Part shown: positions 2,055 through 23,247 of the stretch, in pieces | Position numbering within the stretch: the stretch's first letter is position 1 | How the letters are laid out: each line of letters begins with the position of its first letter | IMG/VR virus record: IMGVR_UViG_3300040960_000671 | Location: 1 to 23,247 of that record | DNA length: 23,247 bases | Direction: 5' to 3' (one strand) | Source of the DNA: a virus | Position numbers and translations under genes: made by a program | The notes under the pieces: model-generated | What the model was told of the DNA's origin: nothing | What the model saw: only the letters and a program-made list of their open reading frames with translations | Databases searched by the model: none

Positions 2055-3548
2055 ATGACACGAGCAAGAGACTTAGCCGATAGTGCCGACAAGGATATTG
2101 CTGGCACACTTACCCTTGATGGGCTTGATGTAGCTGGCAACGTCAGTGTCGATGGCGGCACGATCAAGCTGGACGGGAATTATCCTGTTGGCTCTAATAA
2201 CGTGGCTTTGGGTGATGCTGCGTTGGATAGTGTGACAGGCACAAGAAACACTGCAATTGGTGATAAGGCTGGAACAGGAATAACATCTGGCAATGGTAAC
2301 GTGGCTATTGGCGACAACACCATGACGGCTACCTTAACAGGGTCTGACAATACTGCGGTTGGGACATACTCACTTAACCTCAATACGTCTGGCACACTGA
2401 ACACGGCAGTCGGGGGTTCTTCTCTTGAGCGCAACACAACGGGGAGCAGCAACACTGCTATTGGGCGTCAGGCTCTCACCTTTAACACCACCGCTTCTTA
2501 CAACAATGCCGTGGGTCGTTCTGCCCTTTACTCCAACACGACAGGCGCAAACAACGTAGCTTTGGGGCATCAGGCGCTCCAAGCCAACACCACCGCCAGC
2601 AACAACACTGCTGTAGGGTATCAGGCGGGGTATGCTGTAACAACTGGAACACACAACACATTTGTTGGCAGTGGCTCTGGTGATGCGACAGATGATGGAA
2701 ATAGAAACACGGCATTAGGTTATTTGTCATTAAGTGCAAATGCTGGTGATAATAACACAGCTATTGGCACACAGGCTCTTATTTTAAACACAGGTAGCTC
2801 TAACACCGCAGTTGGTAAAGATGCTGCTTTCTACAATACCTCTGGCAGCAACAACGTTGCTTTGGGGGAAAGCGCACTACAGTCCAACACCACCGCCAGC
2901 AACAACACTGCGGTTGGCTATCAGGCGGGGTATAGCACAACGACAAGTTCTGGGAGTGTGTATGTAGGATACCTTTCAGGTCAAAATACAACATCTTTAC
3001 AAAATACCTTTGTGGGGTCTGGGTCTGGGTATTTAGTCACAAGTGGCCAGAAAAACACGATCATCGGCACATACTCAGGCAACCAAGGCGGCTTGGACAT
3101 CCGCACCTCAAGCAACAACATCGTGCTGTCGGATGGGGATGGCAAGCGCAGGGTAACGGCTCAAGGTTCATCAGCCATGGACTTAATGGGTACGCCTACT
3201 GCCCAGCTTTCAAACTCACTGTTTAAGATTGTTAATAGAGGAACTGGAAACTCTAGTGAAACCTTTACCTCCATAGACATGGGGATGAATGACAATATTA
3301 CGGCTTTGATCAATATTTCCCTTGGTGGCAATGGTGGATCAAATCAATATGGTGGCTGTTTAATATACTGGACTATGCCAAGAGGCGCTAACTCTATCAT
3401 TCATCAAACTATTGTAAGTGCATATAAAGGCAGTGCCGTTTCTACCTTTAGCGTTTCTGTTAGTGGTAATAGCTTAGTCGTCACAAAGGATAGCGGATTA
3501 ACTGTGTCTGTCACCGTCATAGGCGGCGGCGGCTTGTCGACATACTAA
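2055..3548 (+). CDS. Adhesin-like structural protein with YadA/Hep_Hag-type head repeats
   Basis: This 497-residue protein begins MTRARDLADSADKDIAG, a start often seen in marine phage fibre proteins. Residues about 50-350 are many short repeats built around N-(T/N)-A-(V/I/L)-G, including S-N-N-T-A-V-G-Y-Q-A-G-Y. This matches the left-handed beta-roll repeats of trimeric autotransporter heads (YadA-like, Hep_Hag). The C-terminal 150 residues have no repeats and end in a beta-rich region (VSVTVIGGGGLSTY). A good Shine-Dalgarno (AAGGAG) lies 7 nt before the ATG. Probably a trimeric fibre or fibre-associated protein acting with the preceding one in host attachment. Family assignment comes from repeat pattern only; the exact virion location is not visible. 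Confidence 0.78.
   Translation: MTRARDLADSADKDIAGTLTLDGLDVAGNVSVDGGTIKLDGNYPVGSNNVALGDAALDSVTGTRNTAIGDKAGTGITSGNGNVAIGDNTMTATLTGSDNTAVGTYSLNLNTSGTLNTAVGGSSLERNTTGSSNTAIGRQALTFNTTASYNNAVGRSALYSNTTGANNVALGHQALQANTTASNNTAVGYQAGYAVTTGTHNTFVGSGSGDATDDGNRNTALGYLSLSANAGDNNTAIGTQALILNTGSSNTAVGKDAAFYNTSGSNNVALGESALQSNTTASNNTAVGYQAGYSTTTSSGSVYVGYLSGQNTTSLQNTFVGSGSGYLVTSGQKNTIIGTYSGNQGGLDIRTSSNNIVLSDGDGKRRVTAQGSSAMDLMGTPTAQLSNSLFKIVNRGTGNSSETFTSIDMGMNDNITALINISLGGNGGSNQYGGCLIYWTMPRGANSIIHQTIVSAYKGSAVSTFSVSVSGNSLVVTKDSGLTVSVTVIGGGGLSTY
2584..2933 (+). repeat. Direct repeat with exact 300-bp period in adhesin gene
   Basis: A 28-nt block starting CCAACACCACCGCCAGC at 2584 recurs identically at 2884. It is followed by 7 divergent bases and then TATCAGGCGGGGTAT in both copies. 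The copies encode NTTASNNTAVGYQAGY. The 300-bp offset equals 100 codons, which suggests an internal duplication of a repeat module. Confidence 0.8.
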
Positions 3549-4814: not shown

Positions 4815-5833
4815 TGGCGTTACAATCATCAGGCGCGATATCGCTATCTGACATCCAAGACGAGTTTGGCGGGTCAAACCCGATCAGCTTGTCCGAGTAT
4901 TATCGCAACGGCTCATATGTCACTAGCAACAACACAGGCGTTCCCACGTCTGGGCAAATTCAGCTTGATGACTTTTACGGCGCCGTAAAGCAGTTCTCGT
5001 TTACTGTATCCAGTAACCAGCAAGAGATGAACCTAAGCACGTATGCAACATCTGTAGGCTGGGATGGATCGGCTGCTATCGTCATGACAATTTCTTCAGG
5101 CGTTTACCTTTGGTCTGACAGTGTGTCAGTTGGCGGTTTAACCATACCAAGTAGTCTAAATGGACTGGTTACAATCATAAACAACGGCTACATTATTGGT
5201 CGAGGTGGAAACGGAGGGGGCTATGATGGTGCAGCTCAAATCGGCGGTCCTGCCCTTGTAAATAATGCTACTGGTGTAACACTTACTAACGCATCTGGTG
5301 CATACATTGCGGGTGGCGGTGGCGGTGGCTCAGGTGGCGCTAGTGGCTATGGCGGTGGCGGTGGCGGCGCAGGTGGCGGTAACGGTGGGCGTGGTCGTCA
5401 TGAGAACGGAACAATCTATTCTGGCGGGACAGGCGGAGCTGTAGGCCAGTCTGGTACGGCTGCACCACAAGATGTATACTCAGGTGGTGACGGTGGACGC
5501 GGTCAAGGCGGAGGGACTGGAGGCGGTGGCGGATCAGGCTCTAGCTGGTTTGAAGGTTTGCGCTCAAACGGAGGCGGCGGGGGCGGTCGTATTTTAAACG
5601 GATCAGGCGGAGCGGGTGGCACGTCAGACAGCGCGGGGCCAATTGGTACTGGCGGGACAGGGGGTTCACTTGGTAATGCAGGCGGAGACGGCACTGGTAC
5701 TTACGTTGGTGACGGCGGCGGCGGTTGGGGCGCGGCAGGTGGTGGATCAGGCGGCTCTGGCGGCGCAGCCATCTCTGGCACAGCTATAGCGACATATACG
5801 AACAACGGCACAGTTTACGGATCGGTGGCATGA
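4814..5833 (+). CDS. Glycine-rich tail-tip adhesin candidate (Gp38-like architecture)
   Basis: 339 residues. The N-terminal 60 residues (SSGAISLSDIQDEFGG, then LDDFYGA) form an attachment-type module common in marine phage tail proteins. Residues 61-127 are a beta domain. Residues about 128-320 are extremely glycine-rich, with several blocks of four to six glycines separated by short polar loops, and the chain ends TNNGTVYGSVA. T-even phage Gp38 tip adhesins have glycine-rich motifs that fold into a polyglycine-II sandwich displaying variable loops; this C-terminus has the same look. That similarity is architectural, not shown by alignment. ATG overlaps the upstream stop (TAATG), and its own stop overlaps the next ATG (ATGA). 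Probable receptor-binding protein. Confidence 0.68.
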   Translation: MALQSSGAISLSDIQDEFGGSNPISLSEYYRNGSYVTSNNTGVPTSGQIQLDDFYGAVKQFSFTVSSNQQEMNLSTYATSVGWDGSAAIVMTISSGVYLWSDSVSVGGLTIPSSLNGLVTIINNGYIIGRGGNGGGYDGAAQIGGPALVNNATGVTLTNASGAYIAGGGGGGSGGASGYGGGGGGAGGGNGGRGRHENGTIYSGGTGGAVGQSGTAAPQDVYSGGDGGRGQGGGTGGGGGSGSSWFEGLRSNGGGGGGRILNGSGGAGGTSDSAGPIGTGGTGGSLGNAGGDGTGTYVGDGGGGWGAAGGGSGGSGGAAISGTAIATYTNNGTVYGSVA

Positions 5834-7320
5834 CACTAATACCGCTCAACATACCCGCAGGCTTTTACCGCAACGGCACGGACATAGAGCAGTCGAACAG
5901 GTGGCGCGACGGATCACTCGTTCGCTGGCGTGACAACTCATTGCGTCCGATCGGCGGATGGCGTGAGCGTAAGACATCTTTTTCGACCAACCCCGTGCGC
6001 GGCATGCACGCTTGGGAGGCGATCAATGGGAACGCATGGCTCGCAGGCGGATCGCATGACCAGTTGAATGTGATGACTGGATCGGGCACACTCACAGACA
6101 TTACTCCAACAGACTTGGCCGCTGGCCGCGAGGATGCCGCTGCGAACACAGGCTTCGGTGGCGGCACTTATGGCGTTGGCTACTACGGCCAGCCGATACA
6201 GTCTAACGACAACAGCGTTTTGCTCGAGGCGACGACATGGTCGCTAGACAACTGGGGCGAGTACCTCGTTGGGTGCCACTACGATGACGGACGCCTCCTT
6301 GAGTGGCAACTTAATCCGTCAAACAACGCGGCGCCAATCGCGAATGCGCCAATCGATAACCTTGGCCTCGTTGTGACGGAAGAGCGTTTTATCTTTGCAC
6401 TTGGCGCGGGTGGAAACAGTCGCCTCGTGCAGTGGTGCGACTTTGAGAACAATACCGTGTGGACGCCGTCGACGACGAACCAAGCTGGATCGCAGGAGCT
6501 GCAGACGAATGGCCAGATTATGCAGGGTATTCGCACACGCGGCCAGACGCTGATCATCACCGACACAGACGCGTTTTCCGCGCGATACTCTGGCCCTCCC
6601 TACATTTATTCGTTTTCTCGTGTCGGCACTTCGTGCGGCGGCATATCCCGCAAGGCGGCGTCAGACGTTGACATCGGCGTGTTCTGGATGGGGCAGCGCG
6701 GGTTCTTCCGCTTCGACGGCAACTCTGTCTCAGAGATACCGTGCGACGTGCATGACTACGTGTTTGGCGACTTCAACGTGGCGCAGCAATCGAAAGTGTG
6801 GTCGTTTGCCAACGGCCAGTATGGCGAGATTTGGTGGTTCTACTGCTCATCGAACAGCACTGAGATCGATCGCTACGTCGCATACGACTACAAAGAAAAC
6901 CACTGGCTCATTGGCGACTTATCTCGCACGTCAGGCATTCAGCGCGGCGTATTTCGTTATCCATTTATGGCGGGCCACAACGCGGACAGCGATATTTATG
7001 ACCACGAAGTCGGGTTTAACTTTGACGGCGTGGCGGCATTTGCCGAGACAGGTCCGTTGAGCCTCGCTGGCGGAGATCAGATTGCCAGAGTGACCAAGCT
7101 CATCCCAGACGAGCGCACTCAGGGTGACGTTGACGTCACGTTCAAGACGCGCTTTTACCCGAATGGCACTGAGACGACGCACGGGCCGTTCACGCCGAGC
7201 AACCCAACGTCAGTGCGTTTCACTGGCCGACAGATGCGCATGAAGGTCGAAGGCACTGTTCCAACGGACTGGAAGGTCGGCGACATGCGTGTGGACGTTA
7301 CGGCTGGAGGGCGTAGGTAG
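5830..7320 (+). CDS. Virion structural protein, probable beta-propeller head-tail/tail protein
   Basis: 496 residues. The start is the ATG at 5830, which overlaps the previous stop as ATGA; the frame is open further up to 5725, but that extension (MGRGRWWIRRLWRR...) reads the glycine-rich DNA in another frame. The N-terminus MTLIPLNIPAGFYRNGTDIE, followed by RWRDGSLVRWRDNSLRPIGGW, is a pattern recurring in tailed-phage virion proteins. The body is beta-rich with spaced tryptophans, as in beta-propellers, and the end (KVEGTVPTDWKVGDMRVDVTAGGRR) is a beta module. By length and by its place before the ejection-type genes it could be the counterpart of P22 gp10 (packaged-DNA stabilisation) or of a tail tubular protein. 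No direct homology is visible to me. Confidence 0.68.
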   Translation: MTLIPLNIPAGFYRNGTDIEQSNRWRDGSLVRWRDNSLRPIGGWRERKTSFSTNPVRGMHAWEAINGNAWLAGGSHDQLNVMTGSGTLTDITPTDLAAGREDAAANTGFGGGTYGVGYYGQPIQSNDNSVLLEATTWSLDNWGEYLVGCHYDDGRLLEWQLNPSNNAAPIANAPIDNLGLVVTEERFIFALGAGGNSRLVQWCDFENNTVWTPSTTNQAGSQELQTNGQIMQGIRTRGQTLIITDTDAFSARYSGPPYIYSFSRVGTSCGGISRKAASDVDIGVFWMGQRGFFRFDGNSVSEIPCDVHDYVFGDFNVAQQSKVWSFANGQYGEIWWFYCSSNSTEIDRYVAYDYKENHWLIGDLSRTSGIQRGVFRYPFMAGHNADSDIYDHEVGFNFDGVAAFAETGPLSLAGGDQIARVTKLIPDERTQGDVDVTFKTRFYPNGTETTHGPFTPSNPTSVRFTGRQMRMKVEGTVPTDWKVGDMRVDVTAGGRR

Positions 7321-20024: not shown

Positions 20025-20046
20025 TTTATAATGAGTGAGAGTGAGC

Positions 20047-22251
20047 ATGTCAGAAGCATATTTTAACAAGGTACGAGAGAGCGCCGTCGGCGAAATGCTG
20101 TCAACGATAAAAGGCGGACGCAACGAAACACTAAACAAAGCCGCATACGCATTAGGGCGCCACGCCCACCTTGGCCCAGCCAACATCGATGCGGCGGTCA
20201 ACGAATTACACGCAGCCGCAAAACAAATCGGCCTCAACGATATCGAGATCAAAGCCACCATCGGGTCAGGCTTTAAACGAGGCGGCGAAAATCCCAAGGT
20301 TCTCGAGGACAGCGACGCAATCCCATACACGCCGTCCGAGTTCGACCGCCTCATCGGTCGGCTCGCCAGCAAGGAAATGCTGGTGCGCGACGAGGAGACA
20401 CGTCAAGACAAGATAAAGAAGGCGCAGGATCAATGGGAGCGCGCTGTACCGATATCACGGGAGACAACCGACGCAGTACGCCCAGCGCTCCTGTATCTCA
20501 ACTCACGGGGCCTCAGAGCGAGCACAGCGGTCGACGTGGCGCGCTTCAGCCCCAACGTATACGACGGGCCTGCGATTATCTTCCCCGCGCTCAACGAGCA
20601 AGGCACGATCCAAGGCGTGCAAGCCGTGCTGCTCACGCCCGAGGGCAAGAAGCGCGAGCACAACGGCATCAGCAAATACTCGCGCGGCGTGCTCGCTGGC
20701 AACGTAATGCGGATCGGCAACGAACACGACGGCGGCGCAATCATCATGTGCGAGGGGCCAGAGGACGCGCTCAGCGTCAGGCAGGCCGTCAGCGGTTACG
20801 CGGAGGCAACAATCGTCTGCACGTTCGGCAAGGCTGGCATGTACACATATAACGCCCCACGGGCGTCCGACGTTACGATCTGCGCCGACCCTGACCTATA
20901 CGTGGAAAAGGCGGCTGACGTATTGCGCGGCGACGGCAGCACAGCCGTGCACGTCGTGCACTTTGACCGCCTCGGCGTCGAGAACGTCAAGGACGCCAAC
21001 GACTACCTCAAGGAGGCTGGCGAGGAGGCGCTCAAGCTCGCACTCTCGCAGGCAAAGCCAGTCGAGCAGGCGAAGCAAGAAGCCATCGCAACCGAGCGCA
21101 ACTGGCCGACGCTGTTCGAGCCAATCAGCGGGGCAGACATTCCCGCGCGGCGCTGGGTCTACGGCCACCACTACATACGCTCATACGTCAGCGTCGTGGC
21201 ATCCGCAGGGGGCTTGGGCAAGTCATCCATGCAAATGGTGGAGGCGTTCAGCATCGCAACGGGAAAACCTCTCCTCGGGGAACCCGTGCACGAGCCGTGC
21301 AATGTCTGGATCGTTAACCTCGAGGACCCGATGGAGGAGATGCAGCGCAGGGCGGCAGCCGTCATGCAGCACTACGGCATCAAGCCAGAAGAGGTGCGCG
21401 GGAAAATCTTTCTCGACGCAGGGCGCGACCTCAAGATGATCTTCGCCAAGCAGACACGGGACGGGCTGGAGATCATCGAGGAAATCGTTGAGTACATGAT
21501 TAAGGTGATCAACGAGAACAACATCTCAGTCGTCTTCATCGACCCGTGGGTCGCCGCAATGGGCGGCATCAGCGAAAACGATAACATGGCGATGAACGCG
21601 GCGGTGGGAGCCGTGCGCGCAATCGCAGACGCAACGGATGCAGCAATCGTGCTCACTCACCACATTCGCAAGACGAACGGTGAGGAAGCTACGATCGACA
21701 GCGTGCGCGGCGCTGGCTCACTCATCGGGGCCGCGCGCGCTGCTCGTGTACTCAACCGCGTCACGCAGGAGGAAGCCATGAAGCTCGGCGTCAGCGAGCA
21801 GGAAAGCCTCGGCATCTTCCGCGTGGACGACGGCAAAAACAACCTAAGCCTGCCCGCAGCCAAGGCGCTGTACAGGCGCATGCAGAGCGTGCCGCTGGCC
21901 AACGGTGAGTTCGTGGGCGTCGCCACGGAGTTTAAGCTGCCAGACTTGTTCGACGGCATAAGCGCCAAGCACGCCATGGAGGTGCAGCGCCTCGTCGGGG
22001 CGGCCGAGGAGCGCGACGAGCCGATGAGAAAAAATGTCCAAGCGAAAAACTGGGTCGGTCAAGCGGTCGCCGTTGTGCTAGACTTAGACATGGACAAGAA
22101 ACACGAGAAGGCGAAGGCAAAGGCAATCGTGGCGAAGTGGCTCGAGACTGGCGTCCTACGGGAAGCCGAGTGGAAGAGCGCACGACACGGACGCGAGGTG
22201 CCAGTGATTATCGTCGGCGAGTGGATCAGTAGATCGGAGGCAGGGTTGTGA
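20047..22251 (+). CDS. Primase-helicase: Toprim domain plus RecA-fold helicase
   Basis: 734 residues from the ATG at 20047 (GAGTGAG upstream). Residues 1-85 form a helical N-domain with G-R-N-x-x-L-N-x-A-A-Y-A-L-G. Residues about 175-330 are a Toprim-like core: AIIMCEGPEDALSV (E236, D240), TIVCTFGKAG, and ADPD (D281, D283), as in DnaG-type primases. Residues about 375-580 are a RecA-fold ATPase of the RepA/AAA_25 type: Walker A ASAGGLGKSS (385-394), Walker B VVFID (495-499) and THH (537-539). The last 160 residues are helical with a small domain similar to DNA-binding winged helices (KAKAIVAKWLETGVLREAEW). No zinc finger or archaeal-type primase catalytic motif is visible. Central replication protein; it precedes the candidate origin. 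Confidence 0.88.
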   Translation: MSEAYFNKVRESAVGEMLSTIKGGRNETLNKAAYALGRHAHLGPANIDAAVNELHAAAKQIGLNDIEIKATIGSGFKRGGENPKVLEDSDAIPYTPSEFDRLIGRLASKEMLVRDEETRQDKIKKAQDQWERAVPISRETTDAVRPALLYLNSRGLRASTAVDVARFSPNVYDGPAIIFPALNEQGTIQGVQAVLLTPEGKKREHNGISKYSRGVLAGNVMRIGNEHDGGAIIMCEGPEDALSVRQAVSGYAEATIVCTFGKAGMYTYNAPRASDVTICADPDLYVEKAADVLRGDGSTAVHVVHFDRLGVENVKDANDYLKEAGEEALKLALSQAKPVEQAKQEAIATERNWPTLFEPISGADIPARRWVYGHHYIRSYVSVVASAGGLGKSSMQMVEAFSIATGKPLLGEPVHEPCNVWIVNLEDPMEEMQRRAAAVMQHYGIKPEEVRGKIFLDAGRDLKMIFAKQTRDGLEIIEEIVEYMIKVINENNISVVFIDPWVAAMGGISENDNMAMNAAVGAVRAIADATDAAIVLTHHIRKTNGEEATIDSVRGAGSLIGAARAARVLNRVTQEEAMKLGVSEQESLGIFRVDDGKNNLSLPAAKALYRRMQSVPLANGEFVGVATEFKLPDLFDGISAKHAMEVQRLVGAAEERDEPMRKNVQAKNWVGQAVAVVLDLDMDKKHEKAKAKAIVAKWLETGVLREAEWKSARHGREVPVIIVGEWISRSEAGL

Positions 22252-22496
22252 ATTGCAAGTATATGGCATTAGCGCTGGATAGGCATGCGAGGCTTCGCGG
22301 CGATGACATCGGGGTGTTGAAGCCAGTCCTAGCGGACGGCATGTATCGGGATCGTCAGGACGCTTGGGGTGTCGCAGAGTACATGAAGTGGAAACATCCA
22401 GAGTATCGGTGTCTTGTCGTGGAGGTGCTTGAAGAAGTGAATGTCGACCCAACTCGTGACGACGACATAATCGACCAAGGAGACTTTTTCGAATGA
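22248..22496 (+). CDS. Small hypothetical protein
   Basis: 82 residues, GTG start overlapping the primase-helicase stop (GTGA). Sequence MNCKYMALALDRHARLRGDD...: basic first half, then W-G-V-A-E-Y-M-K-W-K-H-P-E-Y-R-C-L-V-V-E-V-L, and an acidic tail. No family recognised. The stop overlaps the next gene's ATG (ATGA), so translation of three genes in a row is coupled. Possibly a helper of the replication proteins, by position only. Confidence 0.62.
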   Translation: MNCKYMALALDRHARLRGDDIGVLKPVLADGMYRDRQDAWGVAEYMKWKHPEYRCLVVEVLEEVNVDPTRDDDIIDQGDFFE

Positions 22497-22729
22497 GCTA
22501 CAGCGAAGACAGAGACGAGATCATGCGCGTCGTGTACTGCGAGAAGTGCGACGGGTACGAGGTCGAGTGGAACGAGGCCAATAAGCGGGTGCCGTCGCTC
22601 AGTTGCGATCAGGACATCGCGGAGGCTATCAAGGCGTGCGCCGACGCCATCGAGGAAATCGTAGAGCTGGAGGAGTTGCTAGGGGCATTGCTTTTGGGCG
22701 ATGTGAAGGCTCCGCAGTATCCACACTAA
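22493..22729 (+). CDS. Small acidic protein with CxxC knuckle
   Basis: 78 residues, ATG overlapping the upstream stop (ATGA). Residues 16-19 are C-E-K-C in VVYCEKCDGYEVEWNEANKR, a single zinc-knuckle half, with one more cysteine at 38 and another at 48. The second half is strongly acidic and helical (IKACADAIEEIVELEELLGA). It may bind zinc through the four cysteines. Its last codons lie inside the first GTGTGG/CCACAC box of the following structured region. Function unknown. Confidence 0.6.
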   Translation: MSYSEDRDEIMRVVYCEKCDGYEVEWNEANKRVPSLSCDQDIAEAIKACADAIEEIVELEELLGALLLGDVKAPQYPH

Positions 22730-22852
22730 AGGTGTGGTGAGGTGTGGAACGTGCGGAAAATAAGCACGAAAAAGCTCCACCACACCTCTAGCGTATATAA
22801 TACGCTAGTGTGGGGGAACGTGTAGGGCTTATTAATTGTAAGTGTGGAAGGT
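22721..22852. other. Structured intergenic region with GTGTGG iterons, candidate replication origin
   Basis: Six copies of GTGTGG or its complement CCACAC: 22721, 22732, 22742, 22780, 22808 and 22842. The second and third are 10 bp apart, one helical turn. CACCACACCTC (22778-22788) can pair with AGGTGTGGTG (22730-22739) or with GAGGTGTGG (22739-22747), but not both. Inside the latter loop CGTGC (22750-22754) pairs with GCACG (22764-22768). A palindrome follows at 22788-22808 and an AT-rich stretch at 22829-22839. Repeated boxes plus AT-rich DNA right behind the primase-helicase is how many replicon origins look; a regulatory RNA is the other option. Confidence 0.5.
22788..22808. repeat. Perfect 9-bp-arm palindrome with AT centre
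   Basis: CTAGCGTAT (22788-22796), three bases ATA, ATACGCTAG (22800-22808). The centre contains TATAAT on the plus strand, but no -35 stands at 16-18 nt upstream. It could be a protein-binding site or a duplex-unwinding start point within the candidate origin. Confidence 0.85.
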
Positions 22853-22860
22853 ACTTGGTT

Positions 22861-23247
22861 ATGAAGCAGAGAATTACAGTGGGGAAGGCAAAGGCGAGGG
22901 GACGTGATCCAGTAGGACACATAAAGCCTGACGAGGATGCGCTGGTCATTAAGGCGGCAGTCTGGGGTCAGCTCGAGCCGCTACAGCGTGTGGCGAATGA
23001 AAAGATTAAGCGCTGGGGCGATTACCTGCCGAAGTGCGTGCCGCCTGAAATGGCTGGTCGCTTCGAGGCAGCCTACGAGGCGCTCGAGGCTGCGGTGCTC
23101 GATAATGACGTCGTCAAGACGCACGAGATTGCGGGGCAGCTCATGCGCGCGTGGGACGTCCTCGAGAAGACGGCGATCGCAGCGGGGCACGAGCCGCTCA
23201 AGGAGAGCGCGTGGTGCGTGCAGATGGAAGAGGGCGACGTGATCTGT
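22861..23247 (+). CDS. Hypothetical protein, 3' partial
   Basis: The frame starts at the ATG at 22861 (MKQRITVGKAKARGRDPVGH), with GGAAGG 9 nt upstream, and is open to the window end: 129 codons are visible and the stop is missing. The N-terminus is basic and probably disordered. The rest is helical with regular spacing (VIKAAVWGQLEPLQRVANEK; FEAAYEALEAAVLDNDVVKT; IAGQLMRAWDVLEKTAIAAG). It is the first gene after the candidate origin. I do not recognise it; a small packaging or replication factor would fit, but nothing proves it. A frame at 22937-23242 is a shadow of it. Confidence 0.7.
   Translation, partial: MKQRITVGKAKARGRDPVGHIKPDEDALVIKAAVWGQLEPLQRVANEKIKRWGDYLPKCVPPEMAGRFEAAYEALEAAVLDNDVVKTHEIAGQLMRAWDVLEKTAIAAGHEPLKESAWCVQMEEGDVIC

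Follow-up and report, generated by a model that had tools for sequence, protein, structure and literature searches.

The 130-bp element between a small ORF (22493–22729) and the gene starting at 22861 of the 23,247-nt viral fragment analysed here (the window) is very probably the replication origin of this phage, whose repeated boxes would be recognised in double-stranded form by the winged helix that the phage's primase-helicase carries. Initiation at this site is deduced from sequence comparisons, and we refer to the element as a candidate origin. The features on which the argument turns are these:

20035–22251, plus strand: primase-helicase with DUF7146, Toprim, a RepA/DnaB-like AAA_25 ATPase and a C-terminal winged helix; proposed origin-binding initiator (Pfam, PHROGs, AlphaFold, Foldseek)
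21964–22248, plus strand: C-terminal winged-helix domain, residues 644–738, proposed box reader (AlphaFold pLDDT about 90)
22039–22041, plus strand: codon for residue 669 (Q); this residue tracks X, the first letter of the box (column analysis)
22186–22188, plus strand: codon of residue 718 (H), which tracks the variable letter, N (column analysis)
22493–22729, plus strand: small ORF (ORF78), 78 aa, no family
22720–22848, no strand: the whole element, iteron array and hairpin, proposed replication origin
22721–22726, minus strand: box 1, GTGTGG
22732–22737, plus strand: box 2, GTGTGG, the arm common to two alternative hairpins
22742–22747, plus strand: box 3, GTGTGG
22751–22756, plus strand: degenerate box 4, GTGCGG, a C-type letter within a T-type array
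22759–22765, plus strand: AATAAGC, complementary to GCTTATT at 22827–22833; scaffold conserved among near relatives
22780–22785, minus strand: box 5, left base of the palindrome
22788–22808, no strand: palindrome CTAGCGTAT-ATA-ATACGCTAG
22808–22813, plus strand: box 6, right base of the palindrome
22820–22825, plus strand: degenerate box 7, GTGTAG (GTGAGG in locus L004)
22842–22847, plus strand: box 8, GTGTGG, overlapping the ribosome-binding region of the next gene
22861–23247, plus strand: conserved gene downstream, truncated by the end of the window; its complete product has 202 aa and belongs to no Pfam family

The repeats that a preliminary description had listed for this region are all present. 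Six exact GTGTGG/CCACAC boxes stand at 22721 (minus), 22732 (plus), 22742 (plus), 22780 (minus), 22808 (plus) and 22842 (plus), with two more that are degenerate, and the unit GTGTGG...AACGTG occurs twice, at 22742 and 22808, the spacing differing between the two. The palindrome is the window's only perfect hairpin with 9-bp arms (spacer 2–5), and the inner hairpin (CGTGC at 22750, GCACG at 22764) can also be found, although among relatives it is common only to the near relative L003. Two hairpins do have the arm 22732–22737 in common, one of 6 bp (22721–22726 with 22732–22737) and one of 10 bp (22730–22739 with 22778–22787); the arm is shared because many identical boxes stand in both orientations, and the proposed switching between the two hairpins is not needed. 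Box 1, read as CCACAC, also forms the last two sense codons of ORF78, CCA CAC (Pro-His), ahead of its TAA stop (22721–22729).

That this is more structure than an ordinary gap would hold is borne out by a chance test: when the whole window was simulated 60 times with a Markov-1 model, the commonest 6-mer in any 132 bp reached four copies in 50 runs and five in one, against six in the element, a density above that of all 60. Compared with shuffles, the element folds with z-scores of -4.9 as RNA and -6.9 as single-stranded DNA. The sole denser 6-mer of the window is CCGCCA, seven copies of which lie at 5313 within an ORF with Gly-rich repeats. Tail-protein-like ORFs at 2–2044 and 2055–3548 of the window carry repeated 'ERMRIDSSGNVGIGTSSP' and 'NTAVGYQAG' units.

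More than 120 loci were recovered when the primase-helicase and the downstream protein were used as queries. About 90 distinct relatives among viruses, and also prophages and two phage-plasmids, have an array with a palindrome downstream of their primase-helicase gene. Nearly all the scanned loci hold about 6–12 boxes in about 200 bp, placed around the palindrome and between the helicase and the downstream gene, so that boxes and palindrome are kept as an architecture; a few relatives, L054 for example, have no clear array. Within one phage nearly all boxes are the same 6-mer of the form XTGNGG, and between relatives its copies change together on an unchanged scaffold: the 6-mer is GTGTGG in the window and L003, GTGAGG in L004 and L053, GTGCGG in L002, L006 and L009, GTGGGG in L069, and CTGAGG, CTGTGG or CTGCGG in farther clades. 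When the window's own clade is aligned, with helicases 95–98% identical, the N letters of the boxes (T in the window and L003, A in L004 and L053, C in L002) co-vary among otherwise invariant neighbours, and the array has therefore not simply been replaced wholesale. Single C-type GTGCGG boxes stand in T-type arrays at 22751–22756 of the window, where L004 has GTGAGG and L010 has GTGTGG, and as the first box of L010, L013 and L056; such lone boxes look like relics of an unfinished switch.

The palindrome, compared across relatives as a list of stems, is replaced by other self-complementary sequences (TAGCGTAT, TTACGTAT, TTGCATAT, ACGCC, CCCTAT and CCCCCC); since the sequence of the stem changes and its self-complementarity persists, either hairpin formation or strict symmetry has been kept. 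Our first search for arrays was limited to XTGNGG and misses other kinds of box, TGACGC among them, which an unbiased 6-mer search recovered. Distant homologues are arranged alike, with boxes unrelated to these, namely TGGAGC (L143), CAGTGGCGC (L145), TGCGTA (L076) and GTGGAG (Methylobacterium), and their array lies mostly directly behind the helicase with other genes after it. Among 50,697 records of phage isolates none was near, and the only matches were three distant helicases, among them those of Microcystis phage Mae-Yong1326-1, which has a cluster of seven GGCGCA, and Rhizobium phage RHph_X2_26, which has no clear array.

When the 1486 alignment columns of six neighbouring proteins were scanned against the box letters, the best column for N was residue 718 of the helicase (0.80, with the next at 0.58). 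H or A occurs there with T in 22 of 22 cases and D with C in 12 of 12, while Q occurs with A in 21 and with G in two, and the code overall reads H, A or T for T, D for C, Q for A and K for G. Residue 669 is perfect for X, with a normalised mutual information of 1.00 over 57 of 57 sequences (Q with G in all 31, R with C in all 26); a value of 1.00 for X is also seen in two columns from much smaller samples, of 12 and 23 sequences. ORF78 and the downstream protein, which are physically nearer to the array, fall below residue 718 for N, and no downstream column is among the best. The residue-base pairs resemble known major-groove preferences, in which Gln goes with A, Asp with C, Lys with G and Ala or Thr with T.

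Shared ancestry was taken into account with a tree of 88 loci built from the helicase without its C-terminal domain. N changes 13 times on this tree and residue 718 also 13 times, and 12 of these changes are shared, whereas no other column shares more than six. In this test over 284 columns residue 718 has a Jaccard index of 0.86, the next best column 0.33, and the mean share is 0.22 (sd 0.11); residue 669 is the best column for X, at 0.71. We used shared changes because sign tests on phylogenetically independent pairs are underpowered for A, C, G and X: these pairs are few, and the test gave six of six for T (p 0.03) and no significance for the others.

The rule was then applied out of sample. 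With the residue-to-letter assignments fixed before the final scans, N and X were both as predicted in all 32 new and distinct loci that had six or more boxes, cases of K with G and a second case of T with T (L279) included, although these loci fall into few clades and are not 32 independent events. Further loci agree, among them L217 (an Opitutae metagenome-assembled genome; D with C), L218 (a Verrucomicrobiota metagenome-assembled genome; K with G) and L183 (A with T), as does the Methylobacterium indicum phage-plasmid pVL1_6, whose helicase is of the K718 type and is directly followed by 13 copies of GTGGGG. There are exceptions. In L118 and L119 Q718 goes with G boxes (GTGGG rather than GTGAGG), the array of L109 also being listed here; the wing in question has the neighbouring change D715A, and since this sits beside Q718, position 715 may also shape specificity. 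R718 in L239 and L244 stands with GTGTGC boxes, altered in their last base, and is outside the code. X is mixed in L067, L068, L071, L155 and L245, N is mixed in Microvirga plasmids, and the boxes of L186, L187 and L191 are degenerate.

Both residues lie in the predicted winged helix. AlphaFold models this C-terminal domain as helix-helix-helix-strand-wing-strand, placing residue 718 at the wing tip; residue 669 immediately precedes helix 2. Foldseek searches with this domain returned only weak, generic winged-helix matches and no specific winged-helix family; the modelled helicase core is best matched by RSF1010 RepA and T7 gp4. The protein thus has the makings of an initiator with a helicase and a separate DNA-binding domain, here AAA_25 and Toprim plus the predicted winged helix. 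As residues 718 and 669 track the letters, and as all 32 predictions held, the boxes are most likely double-stranded sites for the primase-helicase; both the co-evolution and the prediction are strong, and specific recognition by its winged helix is the most likely reading of these alignments.

It could be that the helicase does bind the array but does so as an operator through which it regulates how its own region, or the gene at 22861, is transcribed, with initiation elsewhere. Co-evolution, after all, demonstrates recognition and not initiation, and box 8 reaches into the start region of the following gene. We consider this unlikely, however, as the distance of the array from the helicase end varies from about -50 to 2500 nt across loci, as in distant relatives the array directly follows the helicase and other genes come after it, and as there is no conserved promoter: scans found neither a promoter nor an intrinsic terminator within the element, and the TATAAT inside the window's palindrome is not conserved in relatives. 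The 7–12 sites around a hairpin would also be unusual for an operator. That correlation might have arisen through pure linkage, the helicase end and the array being swapped as one cassette with no contact between them, is made conceivable by the short distance of about 0.5 kb that separates the two in the window's clade; yet only single columns track the letters, ORF78 and the downstream gene do worse for N from nearer by, the tree-aware test sets residue 718 apart from all its neighbours, and the scaffold around the boxes is constant across box types, all of which makes this explanation extremely improbable.

The preliminary description had also raised the idea of an RNA switch, or structured leader, controlling translation of the gene at 22861, and the RNA fold z-score of -4.9 and an outer helix that covers the ribosome-binding region of that gene would be in keeping with it. 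This, too, we judge highly improbable and have set aside: the box letters track helicase residues 718 and 669 and not the downstream protein, copies of the box that lie outside any one set of stems switch as well, and in distant relatives the array is not ahead of this gene. Nor does the element match any Rfam family at the gathering score, the sub-threshold matches being mostly to microRNA models.

The suggestion that these are the iterons of an origin behind the primase-helicase is, by comparison, strongly supported by the co-evolution of helicase and boxes and by the phage-plasmid relatives. Near-complete genomes, about 37 kb long, have just one copy of the array each. Two circular phage-plasmids, pVL1_6 and Rhodoplanes serenus plasmid 1, carry a homologue with the array directly behind the helicase, and their gene tables, which are incomplete, name no other replication initiator. 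GC skew lends the origin reading no support. Along most of the whole genomes of about 37 kb the cumulative curve keeps essentially a single direction, and no turning point of the kind that had been expected was found at the array in ten near-complete genomes or in the two phage-plasmids. Several contigs of the genomes G001–G011 (36–39 kb) have end repeats of 59–141 nt, as is typical for circular assemblies, which suggests that these genomes are complete, permuted or circular.

From these patterns we infer a sequence of events for the candidate origin. The XTGNGG boxes, here GTGTGG, set in both orientations around a hairpin-forming palindrome, would act as iterons and would be bound directly, as double-stranded DNA, by the C-terminal winged helix of the primase-helicase, with residue 718 at the wing tip reading the fourth base and residue 669 the first. 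Once several subunits are bound, the RepA-like hexameric helicase could be loaded and the duplex opened; with the hairpin exposed as a single strand, the Toprim primase part might prime or be loaded there.

That an initiator helicase can recognise iterons lying downstream of the gene that encodes it has been described for SaPI Rep and SCCmec Cch2 (PMC7581432), and the arrangement proposed here is similar in that a C-terminal domain would recognise short iterons directly downstream of its gene. However, those are separate proteins with no fused Toprim primase, whereas here we find a RepA/DnaB-like (AAA_25) helicase-primase, bidirectional boxes around a hairpin and a traceable residue-to-base code. 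The alpha protein of P4 combines a Toprim-type primase, a helicase and a winged helix that binds origin repeats (PMC4234260), a set of parts that, compared by published description, resembles the one proposed here. In pRN1 (ORF904) and phage BIP-1 a stem-loop lies downstream of a primase-helicase with a winged helix, and in pRN1 it is essential for replication (PMC4234260); here too a stem-loop behind a winged-helix primase-helicase changes its sequence and keeps its pairing, but the pRN1 and BIP-1 systems have an archaeo-eukaryotic primase and an SF3 helicase, no iterons, and no sequence-specific binding that has been found. A stem-loop origin of the pRN1 type was rejected, as the protein here has Toprim_3 and AAA_25 in place of that primase and helicase. 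RSF1010, with its RepA helicase, RepC-bound iterons and ssi hairpins (PMC4234260; PDB 1OLO, 1NLF), resembles our element in having iterons plus hairpins at the origin and a helicase core among the closest solved folds, and differs in dividing iteron binding, helicase and primase among three proteins. Co-variation of iterons and initiator has been described for PLE RepA and its origin, with Odn of ICP1 (PMC8263062), and for geminivirus iterons and Rep (PMC12548392), where, as proposed here, origin repeats diversify and match the DNA-binding domain of the initiator; unlike the whole-module swaps of PLE, the changes here are single-residue steps on a constant scaffold. An initiator helicase with downstream iterons is thus of a known kind (SaPI, SCCmec, P4), whereas this family and its residue-to-base code appear to be new: in the open-access literature we found neither a published origin for this phage family nor a single-residue code with concerted switching.

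Genes at 7120–7710 of L129, 7347–7892 of L068, 7198–7740 of L071 and near 6150–6554 of L250 encode stand-alone proteins whose winged helix is a weak paralogue of the one at the helicase's C-terminus, with hmmsearch E-values from 1e-4 to 2e-3 in L129, L068 and L071. These genes sit between the helicase and the array, or overlap the latter. By analogy with Odn against PLE, their products could be antagonists or modulators of the origin. It is tempting, although doubtful, to see in the box letters a fast-evolving incompatibility code, in which a one-nucleotide change in the wing redirects the helicase and selection drives all 6–12 boxes to follow; the selection might then come from co-infecting relatives that compete with the phage, or from antagonists that imitate the winged helix.

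It has long been asked how a protein that binds at many sites can acquire a new specificity and avoid a lethal mismatch. With about 13 switches over 88 loci, the partner residue and base known for them, and what looks like a relic box in the window itself, the question becomes directly testable in small replicons. The simple rule by which two residues specify two bases may help in recognising such origins and in building orthogonal laboratory replicons, and it comes with a candidate origin and initiator for a large and almost uncultured group of phages.
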